Virus record (IMG/VR): IMGVR_UViG_3300024974_000020
Coordinates: 1-20,605 of that record
From: a virus
Direction: 5' to 3' (one strand)
DNA: 20,605 nucleotides
The first letter of the stretch is position 1. Every line of letters starts with the position of its first letter. This document shows, piece after piece, positions 9,123 to 20,605 of the stretch. The notes below the pieces were generated by a model, which saw only the letters and a program-made list of their open reading frames with translations, was not told where the DNA came from and did not search any database. The position numbers and the translations under genes were made by a program.

Positions 9123-9198
9123 TGGGGTGTAGCCAAGATGGTAAGGCAATAGAGTTTGATTCTATGATGCGGCAGTTCGATCCTTCCCACCCCTTCCA
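9123..9198 (+). tRNA. tRNA-Gln (TTG), slightly degenerate
   Basis: Acceptor TGGGGTG pairs with CACCCCT except for the terminal T-T. D stem GCC/GGC. Anticodon arm ATAGA-GTTTGAT-TCTAT pairs perfectly with anticodon TTG. The T arm is GGCAG-TTCGATC-CTTCC with one mismatch. CCA is encoded. The weak first pair is usual for glutamine tRNAs. Confidence 0.82.
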
Positions 9199-13507: not shown

Positions 13508-13583
13508 GTCCGAATCTTCTAATAGGTCAGGAAACCAGACTTTCAATCTGGTAATCCGGGTTCGATCCCCGGTTCGGACGCCA
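13508..13583 (+). tRNA. tRNA-Glu (TTC)
   Basis: Acceptor GTCCGAA/TTCGGAC, G73 and encoded CCA. D stem TTCT/AGGA, anticodon arm CCAGA-CTTTCAA-TCTGG with anticodon TTC, and T arm CCGGG-TTCGATC-CCCGG. All arms are well formed, making it the best tRNA in the window. Confidence 0.95.
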
Positions 13584-13700: not shown

Positions 13701-13773
13701 GTGACGTTAGCTCAACGGTAGAGCGCTGGCTTCCACCCAGAAGATGTGAGTTCGAATCTTACGCGGTACGCCA
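13701..13773 (+). tRNA. tRNA-Gly (TCC)
   Basis: Acceptor GTGACGT/GCGGTAC (one A-G mismatch, two wobbles), D stem GCTC/GAGC, anticodon loop CTTCCAC with anticodon TCC, T arm GTGAG-TTCGAAT-CTTAC, G73 and encoded CCA. Probably functional, with a weak acceptor. Confidence 0.82.
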
Positions 13774-14834: not shown

Positions 14835-14907
14835 GGGTCTGTGGTTTAATTGGTAAAACACGCTGCTCATAACGGTTGAGATTTCGGATCGTGCCCGAAC
14901 GGACCCA
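14835..14907 (+). tRNA. tRNA with CAT anticodon (Met or Ile2)
   Basis: Acceptor GGGTCTG/CGGACCC, D stem GTTT/AAAC, anticodon arm CGCTG-CTCATAA-CGGTT (four pairs) with anticodon CAT, and T arm TTCGG-ATCGTGC-CCGAA. CCA is not encoded. The T loop starts with A rather than T, as in the interrupted tRNA that follows. Confidence 0.8.
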
Positions 14908-14961: not shown

Positions 14962-15795
14962 TTAGTGTATTTCTAATAGATTTTTGATTATGTCTAGTTT
15001 TGATTTATTCATATATTCTTTATGTGAAATGCGAATTATTTCACAGTTATACTCTTCTTTTATGTAACTATCTCTTTCTGTATCATATTTTATGGCTTCT
15101 TTAGTATTGTGTTGTGTTCCATCTAGTTCTATCAGTAGGTTTAGTTCTGGGAAAAAGAAATCCCCAAAATAATATACATTTTTTATTTTATTAGCGAATG
15201 GGTATTCCTGTATGAATACTATATTTGGGTAATATGTTATTAACCAATCGTGAAAAGATTTTTCTAGGTATGATCTTCTTTTTCTAGACCTATTTAAACT
15301 TGGGTTATATCCATTGGCTACTTTTTCTTTTAGAATTCTAGATAGTAATATTGATTTACACTCTAGGGAACAAGTTTTCCCTGATAATGAGTGTGATTTT
15401 TCACAAATAATACACCATTTTACTTTTGAATATTTTGGTTTTGTTGTTTTTTGTGGGGTTCCTTTAGGTGGGCCAGTTTTTATTTTGCTCCAATCTTTTC
15501 TAGCATTAGAATATTTTGCTGAACAAGACCTATTACAAAAGTTATTTGGTAGATAAATAGGAGAGTTACATTGTTTGCAGCTCGATTGTGTTTTTATTGT
15601 GGTATGTTTGTTATGGTGAATTTTTAAATTCTGTGCTGATATTTCTTTTTTGCATATAACGCAACTGCATACTAATTGATATTTTGTTGTACCTTTTTCC
15701 GATTTTCCGCACCACCTAACATGATTTCTGAATTCTAATTTTGATAAGTTGAGTTCTATGTGTGTCTTACTACAAAATGTACATTTTGTCTGCAT
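14962..15795 (-). CDS. Homing endonuclease: zinc fingers plus Vsr-like nuclease
   Basis: The only minus-strand gene, 277 residues. The N-terminal 150 residues carry several Cys/His pairs typical of zinc fingers (CTFCSKTH, CSCVICKK, CKQCNSP with CNRSCSAKY, CIICEKSH with CSLECKS), which should bind DNA. The C-terminal domain is of the Vsr-like (EDxHD/DUF559) type: SYLEKSFHDWL, FIQEYPF, FGDFFFPELNLLIELDGTQH and YDTERDSYI. It sits inside a tRNA gene, the kind of conserved target such enzymes use. A TATAAATA motif lies 30 bases before its start. Confidence 0.85.
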   Translation of the reverse strand: MQTKCTFCSKTHIELNLSKLEFRNHVRWCGKSEKGTTKYQLVCSCVICKKEISAQNLKIHHNKHTTIKTQSSCKQCNSPIYLPNNFCNRSCSAKYSNARKDWSKIKTGPPKGTPQKTTKPKYSKVKWCIICEKSHSLSGKTCSLECKSILLSRILKEKVANGYNPSLNRSRKRRSYLEKSFHDWLITYYPNIVFIQEYPFANKIKNVYYFGDFFFPELNLLIELDGTQHNTKEAIKYDTERDSYIKEEYNCEIIRISHKEYMNKSKLDIIKNLLEIH

Positions 15796-15958: not shown

Positions 15959-16645
15959 ATGAAACTATCTCCAGAAACTACTGGTGTTCTAAAAAACTTT
16001 GCAACAATTAACCAAGGCATTCTTTTTAAAGAAGGTAATGTTGTTTCAACTATTAGCCCACAAAAGAATATTTTGGCTCAGGCTACTATCTCAGAAGAAA
16101 TACCACAAGAGTTTGGTATCTATGATCTGAATAACTTCTTGTCAGTTACAAGCCTTTTTAAAGATGGTTCTGAGCTTGATTTTGATGATCATCATGTGAT
16201 TATTAATGGGATGTCCGGTCGTTCTAAGATCAAATATCGTATTACTGACGCATCTATGATCGTGGCGGCTCCAGATAAACGCCCTAACCTACCATCTGTT
16301 GATATTAAGTTCGTTCTTAGTAAAGATGATTATGAATGGGTTTTGAAAACTGCCAATGTAATTGGTTCACCAAATATCGCCGTTGAGTCGAAGGATGGAG
16401 AATCAATTAGTTTGGTTGCGTTCAATGCGTCTGATGATTCTGCTCATACCAATTCACTGACTATCCCTGATGCTAATGCTGATGGTAAAACATTTAGTAT
16501 GGTTTTCAAGACTGAAAACTTGAAAGCTATTCCTGATACCTATGCTGTAGAAATTAGCTCTAAAGGTATTTCCACATGGACTGCTATTGATCGTGAATTA
16601 AAATACTGGATCACAACCGAAACTGTATCTAAGTTTAATGGTTAA
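15959..16645 (+). CDS. 45: Sliding clamp gp45
   Basis: A 228-residue trimeric sliding clamp (T4 gp45: 228). MKLSPETTGVLKNFATINQGILFK matches the T4 start closely (MKLSKDTTALLKNFATINSG), as does IYDLNNFLSVTSLF (T4 IYDLNGFLGILSLV). It encircles DNA and tethers DNA polymerase, and activates late transcription by contacting gp55 and a gp33-like co-activator. It is under its own promoter and is intact. Confidence 0.95.
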   Translation: MKLSPETTGVLKNFATINQGILFKEGNVVSTISPQKNILAQATISEEIPQEFGIYDLNNFLSVTSLFKDGSELDFDDHHVIINGMSGRSKIKYRITDASMIVAAPDKRPNLPSVDIKFVLSKDDYEWVLKTANVIGSPNIAVESKDGESISLVAFNASDDSAHTNSLTIPDANADGKTFSMVFKTENLKAIPDTYAVEISSKGISTWTAIDRELKYWITTETVSKFNG

Positions 16646-17478: not shown

Positions 17479-17724
17479 ATGAATACAAATGGATTGTCTA
17501 ATATACTTTCTCACTATGAGTTGGATATTAATGATGGTATTACACGCAATAGGATTGCCGATGATATGCTATCTTATATCAGATCAACAGTTGCTATTGT
17601 AGATATTACTACCACAGAAGAAGTTGATCTAGGAGTGGTTAAGTACGAAGTCTCTATGTTAGGTGAACCAGTAGCCACCTTTCGTTCCAAAACTGGACAT
17701 GCTGAATTCGATGAGGTAAAATGA
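17479..17724 (+). CDS. Unknown protein, 81 residues
   Basis: MNTNGLSNILSHYELDINDG then a helix (RNRIADDMLSYIRSTV) and a beta-rich end (GVVKYEVSMLGEPVATFRS). Its stop overlaps the gp44 start (ATGA), so it is probably cotranslated with the clamp-loader genes. No family recognised. Confidence 0.65.
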   Translation: MNTNGLSNILSHYELDINDGITRNRIADDMLSYIRSTVAIVDITTTEEVDLGVVKYEVSMLGEPVATFRSKTGHAEFDEVK

Positions 17725-17966
17725 GTAGTGAACAAATTCTTTGGACGGAAATCTATCGTCCTAAAAAAATAGCAGATTGTATATTGCCTGAACATATTAA
17801 AACCATGTTCCAACAATGTGCAGATAAAAAAGAAATCCCACATATGTTACTTTCCGGTGGACCGGGTTGTGGTAAGTGTTTGGATCCTAATGAGGAAATT
17901 GAAATTCAAGTACCTGATGATTTATATAATGACCTTGTTAAGTTTATATCAGAGAAATCTACATGA
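17721..17966 (+). CDS. 44: Clamp-loader ATPase gp44, N-terminal part, fused to a short split-intein N half
   Basis: Residues 1-52 are the start of gp44 (WTEIYRPKKIADCILPEHIK, then HMLLSGGPGCGK), ending exactly inside Walker A. Residue 53 is the intein Cys1, followed by 28 more residues (CLDPNEEIEIQVPDD then LYNDLVKFISEKST) and a TGA. A 29-residue N half is far shorter than the roughly 100 of usual split inteins, but similar to the atypical AceL-TerL/VidaL class (about 15-40). The missing Thr of GKT is supplied by the partner at 19085. Without trans-splicing the product has no nucleotide-binding site. It overlaps the previous gene by four bases. Confidence 0.92.
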   Translation: MSSEQILWTEIYRPKKIADCILPEHIKTMFQQCADKKEIPHMLLSGGPGCGKCLDPNEEIEIQVPDDLYNDLVKFISEKST

Positions 17967-18047
17967 TGTGGTGATATTCAGTCTTTCCTAACCCTGTAAT
18001 CCCATAATAACTAAATACTTTTATGTTTAATTATATGAGAGTATTTA

Positions 18048-19122
18048 ATGTTTACAGAAGAGATGGAATGTGCGTATATAAATTTATTAAAATCTAACGA
18101 GAAAAACCGGAAAAAGAAACGGTTTTTCCTGATTATTTTATTATTAGAGGATATACTGAAGATAAATCCTATGAATTGGCTAAAAAATTTTATTTTAACC
18201 TTATAACAAAAAATGAGTTGGAATTAATATCTAATGCATGTAGTGCATTTTCTATTGATTATTGGGTTATTAGGGGGTATAGCGAAGATATAGCTAGGTC
18301 TAAAGTTTCTGGTATACAGAGAAAGAATTCTAGGAAACGGGCAGATAAATTAAAGATGATTCCTAAAGAAATTCGTGATATAAATAACCCATTAACTGTA
18401 TCATATTACGTTAATAGAGGTTTCTCCGAAGATGAATCTAAGATAAAACTTAAAGAGAGGCAATCTACATTTTCGCTGAGTAAATGTATTGAAAGGCATG
18501 GTGAAGAATTAGGATATATAGTTTGGAAAGAACGGCAAGATAAATGGCAAGATAGTTTAAATTCTAAATCAGAAGAAGAGCTGTTACGGATAAATAAGTC
18601 TAAGGATAGCAGTTCATTTACCTGGGCATTGAAGAAATGCGACGGTGATATAGAAAAGGCTAAAGACTTATATGTAATTCGTAATAGTAAACGTAATACT
18701 TGTAAACCAGTGTGTTTGTACTCTAAAGAATCTATAGTATTCTTGCAGGAAGTGTATGATTTATGTTGTTCTCTTGGGTTAACCATTTTATGGAAAGATG
18801 CTGAATTGGTTATTTCTGATGGAGTTTTTACGGTATGTATGATTTTTGTGTAAAAGAACTTAGGATCATTATTGAATATCATGGTACGGCTTTCCATCCA
18901 AAAAGCTGGGATGATCCAACATGGAAGCACCCTTATGACAAATCAATAACTTCCGAGCAAGTCTATAATAGAGATAACCTTAAGAAAAATAAAGCTATAG
19001 AATTTGGATATGATTATTATGTAGTCTGGTCTGATGCTACAGTAGGATTTATAGAAAATATGAAAAAGGTGATTTTGGGTAAGTATGAAAAATTTGAAAA
19101 TAACATTGAAAGATTTATTTAA
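18048..19122 (+). pseudogene. Homing endonuclease between gp44 halves, broken by two frameshifts
   Basis: The reading frame starts at ATG 18048 (MFTEEMECAYINLLKSNEK), moves to another frame at the A5 run 18102-18106, and again at the T5 run near 18825-18829. Restoring one base at each gives a single 358-residue protein. It has three repeats of a (Y)WVxRGYSEDxA unit (about 18131, 18257 and 18402), as in some phage homing endonucleases, and a SLSKCIERHGEELGYIVWKE segment. The C-terminal Vsr-like nuclease reads YDFCVKELRIIIEYHGTAFH and then YNRDNLKKNKAIEFGYDYYV. A TTG at 18176 could start the middle part alone. It overlaps the next gene by 38 bases. Without repair it makes no full nuclease. Confidence 0.8.
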
Positions 19123-20260
19123 TTTTTGTGGTATGACTTCTGTAAATTATGATGAGTTTACAGAGAATACTAGAGAAATTTATATTAAAACGCCAGATAA
19201 TGATTGGGTCAAAATTAATGGATTTATAAAAAAACAAGATAAAAAATTGTTTGTTGAATTCAAATCTGGAAGGTTTTTTATCTGTGGAGAAAATCATATA
19301 GTAGTATCGCGTGATGGGTTATCTTATATTAAAGATTCATCGAATGTGTTAAATGTTCTAAGCGAAGATTATGATGAGATTGTAAATAAAGAGGACCTAG
19401 ATTATGGAGATGTATATGACATTTCTATAGACGCCCCTCATTTATATCTTACTCCGAATGGGTTCGTCCACCATAACACTACTATAGCAAAAGCTTTATG
19501 TGAAGAGGTTGGATGTGACTACCTTTTTATCAATGCATCTACTGAAAATGGTATTGACGTTCTTAGAAATCAAATCACAAACTATGCCACTTCTGTATCA
19601 TTGTCTGGTGGTAGAAAAGTTGTAATTCTCGATGAGTCTGATGGGCTTTCTCCTAATTTTCAAAATGGTATGAAATCATTTCTGGAACAGTTTTCACAGA
19701 ATTGTTCATTTATCTTTACGTGTAATCATAAAAATAAAATTATTGAACCGATTCATTCTCGTTGTTCGGTAATCGATGTTAAGATCACAAAGGAAGATAA
19801 GCCAGCTCTTATGGCGCAATTCTTTAAGCGTGTTCTGATGATTCTTGATACAGAAGGTGTTCAATACAATAAGGATGTTGTAGCCAAAATCATTGCTAAA
19901 TATCACCCAGATAACCGTAGGGTGTTAAATGAGTTACAACGTTATTCATTGTTGGGTCAAATTGATACTGGTATTCTAACTCAGGTATCGGATATTAATT
20001 TGTCTCCATTGATCAAGTCATTGAAAGAAAAGAATTTTGGTGATGTGAGAAAGTGGTTGGTGAATAATTTGGACTCTGATAGTGTAACTATTTACCGCAA
20101 GATGTATGACCAGATGTATGATTTCTTGGAGCCAAATTCCATTCCTCAATTAGTATTGTTGATTGGTCGTTATCAGTATCAGACAGCGTTTGTTGCTGAT
20201 GCGGAAATTAATCTCATGGCATTTTTCACTGAATGTTTGATTGATCTTGAGTTTCGATAA
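19085..20260 (+). CDS. 44: Split intein C half fused to the C-terminal part of clamp-loader ATPase gp44
   Basis: Residues 1-131 are the large C half of the intein: FVEFKSGRFFICGENHIVV holds the block-B His, GDVYDISIDAPHLYLTPNGFVHHN is the C-terminal block ending in His130-Asn131. The +1 residue is Thr132. From there TTIAKALCEE completes Walker A. VVILDESDG is Walker B, IFTCNHKNKI is sensor 1, and IHSRCSV is the arginine-finger SRC motif. Joined with the 52 residues from the first gene it makes a 312-residue gp44 (T4: 319), which with gp62 loads gp45 onto DNA. ATG 19085 overlaps the endonuclease; ATG 19133 is an alternative. Confidence 0.92.
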   Translation: MKNLKITLKDLFNFCGMTSVNYDEFTENTREIYIKTPDNDWVKINGFIKKQDKKLFVEFKSGRFFICGENHIVVSRDGLSYIKDSSNVLNVLSEDYDEIVNKEDLDYGDVYDISIDAPHLYLTPNGFVHHNTTIAKALCEEVGCDYLFINASTENGIDVLRNQITNYATSVSLSGGRKVVILDESDGLSPNFQNGMKSFLEQFSQNCSFIFTCNHKNKIIEPIHSRCSVIDVKITKEDKPALMAQFFKRVLMILDTEGVQYNKDVVAKIIAKYHPDNRRVLNELQRYSLLGQIDTGILTQVSDINLSPLIKSLKEKNFGDVRKWLVNNLDSDSVTIYRKMYDQMYDFLEPNSIPQLVLLIGRYQYQTAFVADAEINLMAFFTECLIDLEFR

Positions 20261-20605
20261 TGGCCGACTTGTTTAAAGATATTATACCGTCTCTACTTGA
20301 ACGTAGAGAACCTGCAATAACAACCGATAACGAAAATGAATATAACCCATTCATTTGTAATCGTGCAATTTCACAGCATGTTGATTGTATTCTCTATGCT
20401 AATGAAATGAATCGGTTACGTGGGTTGGATAAGAAAATGCAATATGATTTCTATTTTCATTCTCTACCTAAGAAAAAGAGGAAATTTCAGAAGTGGGCTA
20501 AGGGTAGTGAAGAATCGGCTGATATTGCTAATGTGAAGGAATATTTTGGTTACTCTACTGAAAAGGCTAAGGAAAGCTTACGAATTCTTAGTAGAGAGCA
20601 ATTAG
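20260..20605 (+). CDS. 62: Clamp-loader small subunit gp62, cut by the window end
   Basis: MADLFKDIIPSLLERREP, then YNPFICNRAISQHVDCILYA, NEMNRLRGLDKKMQYDFYF, KKKRKFQKWAKGS and VKEYFGYSTEKAKESLRIL follow gp62 of cyanophage-type T4 relatives. It starts on the gp44 stop (TAATG) and stays open to the last base, with 115 codons visible. It forms the 4:1 gp44/gp62 clamp loader. Confidence 0.88.
   Translation, partial: MADLFKDIIPSLLERREPAITTDNENEYNPFICNRAISQHVDCILYANEMNRLRGLDKKMQYDFYFHSLPKKKRKFQKWAKGSEESADIANVKEYFGYSTEKAKESLRILSREQL

Follow-up and report, generated by a model that had tools for sequence, protein, structure and literature searches.

Evidence for a naturally split intein with a short N half in the Walker A motif of a T4-like phage clamp loader

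Few natural split inteins with a very short N half have been characterised, namely AceL-TerL, GOS-TerL, VidaL and PolB16 (PMC11766414, PMC13014065, PMC10189870), and such inteins are prized for adding small synthetic tags to proteins. Natural atypical splits lie at S1, after strand beta-2 (VidaL, PolB16), or at S2, after helix alpha-1 (AceL-TerL) (PMC13014065). The N halves of VidaL and PolB16 OarG, both split at S1, have 16 and 15 amino acids (aa), the latter being the shortest characterised as reported (PMC13014065, PMC10189870), and those of AceL-TerL, GOS-TerL and Cat, split at S2, have 25, 37 and 30 aa (PMC11766414). A phage intein split around an endonuclease is known from the MIJ3 PolB (PMC6892783). 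Here we describe a locus in which the gp44 clamp-loader ATPase of a T4-like phage is coded, by translation, in two open reading frames (ORFs), 17721-17966 and 19085-20260, with the two halves of an intein at the break and a decayed homing endonuclease between them. The locus lies on a 20,605-bp virus contig (IMG/VR record IMGVR_UViG_3300024974_000020, positions 1 to 20,605), the whole of which is referred to below as the window.

A first-pass annotation, made from the letters alone, had stated that the first gene ends with GGPGCGK followed by Cys1 and 28 further intein residues, and that the second gene, 1.1 kb on, begins with a 131-residue intein C half (IC) ending VHHN and resumes with TTIAKAL. 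Translation confirmed both statements to the residue, the 1.1 kb being the distance from the stop of the first gene to the ATG of the second. The intein N half (IN), CLDPNEEIEIQVPDDLYNDLVKFISEKST, comprises 29 aa coded by positions 17877-17963. The length of IC is well defined, since the same frame is closed by a stop only a few codons 5' of ATG 19085, which is the only ATG in the IC part of the ORF. A frame of 131 codons would stay open by chance, at the base composition of the window, with p of about 4e-6. The features of the locus and its immediate context were as follows.

17721..17876, + strand: gp44 N-extein, 52 aa, ending LLSGGPGCGK, the Walker A motif through Lys; phrog_168 positions 5-55, E 2e-16
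17877..17966, + strand: IN, 29 aa starting with Cys1, then the stop codon; layout the same in relatives
17967..18047, + strand: spacer from the IN stop to the endonuclease remnant, without a long open frame, stops in all three frames
18048..18130, + strand: probable 5' endonuclease piece in another frame, MFTEEMECAYINLLKSNEKN...; weak, without a confident alignment, its end variable in relatives
18131..18853, + strand: homing endonuclease, DNA-binding repeats and conserved module, KERQSTFSLSKCIERHGEE..WKERQDKWQ; ORF listed from TTG 18176
18835..19122, + strand: homing endonuclease, putative catalytic part, VKELRIIIEYHGTAFHP, Vsr/EDxHD-like, in a shifted frame; 38-nt overlap with the start of IC
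19085..19477, + strand: IC, 131 aa ending GFVHHN, with block B His71, Asp112, penultimate His130 and Asn131
19478..20260, + strand: gp44 C-extein, 260 aa from TTIAKAL, stop included; phrog_168 positions 56-312, E 4e-92; Pfam Gp44_lid
15959..16645, + strand: context, gp45 sliding clamp; Pfam gp45-slide_C and DNA_PPF
20260..20604, + strand: context, gp62-like clamp-loader A subunit, cut by the record end; Pfam Phage_clamp_A

The two exteins match a single PHROG family (phrog_168, clamp loader) at the adjacent positions 5-55 and 56-312, and the joined flanks give a protein of 312 aa which aligns over its full length to intact gp44 proteins with 62-71% identity. Among 80 close relatives (61-74% identity), gp44 runs uninterrupted across the GK/T point in 79; in the remaining one (L076) the contig end falls at that point. 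Intact frames through GK/T, together with the full-length match of the joined flanks, place the insertion exactly after the Lys and before the Thr of Walker A, inside the motif where the first-pass annotation had set it. Thr, named there as the +1 residue, is indeed found at this position by translation, and is also the native residue in the relatives with an empty site. With gp45 upstream and the gp62-like gene downstream (Pfam), the split gp44 keeps the usual T4-like gene order.

By sequence, IC matches the inteins gp41-1 and Pho RadA with E of about 0.003-0.005 and, weakly, Pfam Intein_splicing (E 0.007, below the Pfam cut-off). The fold of IC, modelled by itself, was predicted by AlphaFold2 with 31 related C halves. 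The model (pLDDT 80) is predicted to have the HINT fold typical of inteins; its top Foldseek match was the gp41-1 intein (E 1e-6), and its Z scores were 13.4 to Npu DnaE, 12.8 to gp41-1, 11.5 to VidaL (6vgv) and 11.4 to Cat (6dsl). His71, Asp112, His130 and Asn131 are invariant among the 31 aligned C halves. The residue set of a class 1 intein is present (block B His, block F position, penultimate His, terminal Asn and Thr+1), and Cys1 stands flush with GGPGCGK without an extra residue between. A natural atypical split intein with a short N half, its 29 and 131 aa on separate ORFs with stops between, is a well-supported reading, as is its proposed status as a new member of the class in a clamp loader.

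The position of the split was deduced from a contiguous counterpart. In LR756508, the 484-kb genome of an uncultured huge phage (locus L083), the clamp loader carries, in one ORF and at GK/T, a contiguous intein of 149 residues that spans IN and IC as a single domain, and its C part shows 32% identity to that of the window over the aligned region. Its N part runs straight into LRLPVGRLFELLG, the counterpart of the LKITLKDLFNFCG that starts the window IC, and this continuity places the window split just before that element. On this alignment the split is S1-like with a longer tail. The KITLKDLFNF element (IxIxDxYxxL type), after which an S2 split would fall, sits within the window IC. In a tree of C halves, the window IC stood apart from 30 S2-type rows with 99/99 support on long branches, and grouped with gp41 of Vibrio phage vB_VmeM-32, L083, L114, L091 and L119; two further clamp-loader loci, L098 and L139, fell in the other group. 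Of the two types named by the first-pass annotation, the split is thus like VidaL (and PolB16), at S1, rather than like AceL-TerL (and GOS-TerL), at S2.

Between the halves, at 18048-19122, lies a homing-endonuclease gene that occupies two or more frames and that the first-pass annotation lacked. Individual proteins of the relatives align to 18131-18853 over one stretch and to 18835-19122 over the next, in another frame; with L093, for example, residues 182-377 align in frame 3 and residues 384-473 in frame 2. A second frameshift is likely near the 5' end, between 18048-18130 and the next piece. The central module, KERQSTFSLSKCIERHGEE...WKERQDKWQ, is conserved in the relatives and is followed by IIEYHG..FHP, common to many of them, which may be a Vsr/EDxHD-like catalytic motif. 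One endonuclease relative matches NCBIfam vsr weakly (E 0.006); the window copy gave no Pfam match, and no meaningful PDB match by profile search. In the endonuclease alignment most loci have the module with a Vsr/EDxHD-like end, whereas L105, L128, L149, L159, L160 and others have it with a GIY-YIG-like end; this mixture of ends on one module suggests that nuclease domains have been swapped. The gp44 halves, IN, IC, gp45, the gp46-like and gp47-like genes and the C part of UvsW are all free of frameshifts, which, as far as sequence can tell, favours real decay of the endonuclease over sequencing error. We class the locus as a fractured gene, in which a decayed homing endonuclease separates the intein halves, and its open gp44 and intein parts beside a frameshifted endonuclease are as expected if only splicing were under selection.

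Relatives of the endonuclease were collected from 80 IMG/VR loci and from several phage genomes. IC sequences follow the endonuclease in about 60 of the 80 loci, and both halves were recognised automatically in 30 non-identical loci, or 27 after grouping at 80% identity; 27 distinct split inteins is a lower bound, and the automatic N call in L149 was false and was set aside. Across these at least 27 inteins the N halves have 14-58 aa (median 36) and the C halves 118-175 aa, and the start of the C half mostly overlaps or abuts the 3' end of the endonuclease, as it does in the window. By PHROG, the host genes are terminase large subunit, SbcC/gp46, DnaB/gp41, UvsX, PhoH, Clp-like ATP-dependent protease, UvsW-like helicase, clamp loader and genes of unknown function. 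With few exceptions, the insertion sites checked fall within the P-loop, mostly at GK/T or GK/S and less frequently at G/TGK, N/TGKS, A/TNVGKS or S/SGKS; some terminases have further inteins at non-P-loop sites, where this endonuclease is not adjacent. The terminase genes of L128, L130, L132 and L157 have two or three inteins per gene; one of them sits at the P-loop beside the endonuclease family and the others before CLFLDEFAF-like and CEF sites. At L091:3530-5765, a P-loop gene of unknown function (phrog_1250) has a 14-residue IN, CFCGETEMDVEFPL, one residue below that of PolB16.

Besides the window, three clamp loaders are interrupted in association with this endonuclease family. L098 (IN 29 aa) and L139 (IN 32 aa) have the insertion at GK/T. 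In L089 (2214-4540), at the site NPG/TGK, one ORF comprises the N-extein, IN and an endonuclease whose end is GIY-YIG-like, and a second ORF comprises IC with the gp44 C part; this layout is a possible intermediate of gene breaking. Because the window and L098/L139 fall in separate tree groups, it appears, on their sequences, that two intein lineages have arrived at the GK/T site of the clamp loader. Clamp loaders are rarely interrupted: among 92 loci related to L098 and L139, 89 are uninterrupted, two are the L098 and L139 contigs themselves and one is truncated, no further split clamp loader being found among them. The first-pass annotation took a clamp-loader case to be seldom described. 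No clamp-loader split intein was found in the open-access literature, with a case possible among the enzyme types of Dassa et al. 2009; the window is not an isolated case, as L098, L139, L089 and L083 are also interrupted. A search of IMG/VR with the window IC as single query returned no relative, the L083 intein as query gave no match, the IC alignment held no pattern conserved enough to search with, and the DNA pattern HN-TT-[IV..]-AKAL did not occur beyond the window; from these searches the exact window allele is either rare or unsampled. We entertain, at somewhat less than even odds, the broader idea that one modular homing-endonuclease family is a specialist of inteins in the coding DNA of P-loops (Walker A) and has acted there more than once, in two intein lineages and with different nuclease domains. 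If so, loci like L089 would be snapshots of gene breaking.

Our reading of the window, to which we assign a probability of about 0.87, is that gp44 is made as two polypeptides joined post-translationally by a naturally split intein, which arose through insertion of an endonuclease that later decayed. From the anatomy, the homology, the empty site, the predicted fold and the recurring architecture described above, we infer association of IN with IC, splicing, homing and the order of events as follows. The 29 residues of IN on the first protein would dock into the 131 residues of IC at the front of the second to form a HINT domain; Cys1 and Thr+1 would pass the N-extein by ester chemistry, and Asn131 would cyclise, as in class 1 splicing. 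Ligation of GGPGCGK to TTIAKAL would restore Walker A in a 312-residue gp44 with the junction peptide GGPGCGKTTIAKAL. Walker A forms only through splicing, on which the phage should therefore rely. A free-standing homing endonuclease would earlier have entered the intein coding sequence near its N-terminal end, splitting the intein, and spread the element into P-loop genes before it decayed by frameshift in the window, leaving a dependent yet functional split gene.

Several points weigh against this reading. Homology of the 29-residue IN is suggested by Cys1, its position and the contiguous relative, its own score not being significant, and the searches of IMG/VR returned nothing close to the window intein. 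An intact gp44 may also lie elsewhere in the genome. The first-pass annotation would have been overturned by a second gp44, and none was found in the 20.6-kb record, which has only one clamp loader and is a genome fragment, the rest of the genome lying beyond it. The locus could be a dead remnant, a clamp loader which the endonuclease has broken and whose intein has lost splicing, in a phage that uses another clamp loader or that of its host. The frameshifted endonuclease and the unseen bulk of the genome would suit this, but the catalytic intein residues are all kept, the gp44 and intein halves have stayed open while the 1 kb of endonuclease between them has not, the gp45-gp44-gp62 order is kept and the record has a single clamp loader, and we regard such a remnant as improbable.

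Still less probable is a clamp loader working as two non-covalent pieces without splicing, like the genes-in-pieces NrdA of some phages. It has a precedent in an endonuclease-split ribonucleotide reductase that retained function, as cited in PMC3322345. The break in gp44, however, separates Lys from Thr of the nucleotide site inside the Walker A loop and leaves 29 and 131 foreign residues there; a site so interrupted is unlikely to form unless they are excised, and the inserted residues are predicted to make up a HINT domain. Introns are a common interruption of phage genes, and the contig is of metagenomic origin, so a group I/II intron or an assembly artefact between the halves was also considered; we give it the smallest chance of all, since Rfam finds no intron in the record and only four tRNAs, the insert codes for intein right up to the junction, and the layout in three parts is seen again in dozens of independent contigs and in one isolated phage genome.

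Other features of the record include a second fractured gene, the UvsW helicase at 295-1870, with its IN off the window. Its intein has a conventional 35-aa IC (971-1075, ...VVQN/CHLASAKG) with a NUMOD3-containing endonuclease ORF upstream (295-993), and the IC and the endonuclease locus both have PHROG families, phrog_9690 and phrog_22417. A free-standing DUF559/homing-endonuclease-like gene with zinc-finger-like motifs lies near gp45 on the opposite strand (14962-15795, - strand). The four tRNA genes (Rfam) are at 9123-9195, 13508-13580, 13701-13770 and 14835-14907.

The association of the endonuclease with the P-loop is the part of these results likeliest to surprise specialists. The endonuclease family serves as a beacon for short-N split inteins, having pointed to no fewer than 27 further candidates, the shortest N half among them being 14 residues long, and the recurring P-loop location in at least eight ATPase families makes the question of how inteins become split directly testable.

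Among the characterised systems, VidaL and PolB16 resemble the window in being naturally split close to the N terminus, behind the first strands, and in having a long C fragment with the HINT fold. The window differs from both in its clamp-loader host, in a 29-aa IN with an added VPDDLYNDLVKFISEKST tail and in the decayed endonuclease between the genes; it has Cys1 and Thr+1 where PolB16 has Ser1 and Ser+1, and is about 21% identical in sequence to VidaL. AceL-TerL, GOS-TerL and Cat share with it a short N half, a C half of comparable size and a phage P-loop host protein, but are split one structural element later and have Cys at +1 in place of Thr. The contiguous inteins of the archaeal RFC small subunit and of L083 occupy the Walker A site as in the window, that of L083 at the same residue, but the L083 intein is not split and has no endonuclease; archaeal RFC profiles in NCBIfam reach into the intein C end. 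The fractured genes of Dassa et al. 2009 are reportedly split inteins with a free-standing Vsr-like endonuclease between the halves, mainly in phage, and their members gp41-1, NrdJ-1 and IMPDH-1 are said to have the conventional split site and a long N half; the window shares the broken gene with an endonuclease gene between the intein halves, but has the break at the N-terminal site. Similar in arrangement is gp41 of the cultured Vibrio phage vB_VmeM-32 (KU160494, L084), with a 27-aa IN, a related endonuclease, an IC overlapping its 3' end and an HHN/T junction, although the host is a helicase and the insertion lies at N/TGKS rather than GK/T. The split gp41 is annotated there as hypothetical proteins or not at all; that record (L084:1-508 and 843-3918) also has IC sequence in UvsX, and the split helicase has gone unrecognised in it. 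The class of short-N split inteins is itself known, and the clamp loader is an added host for it.
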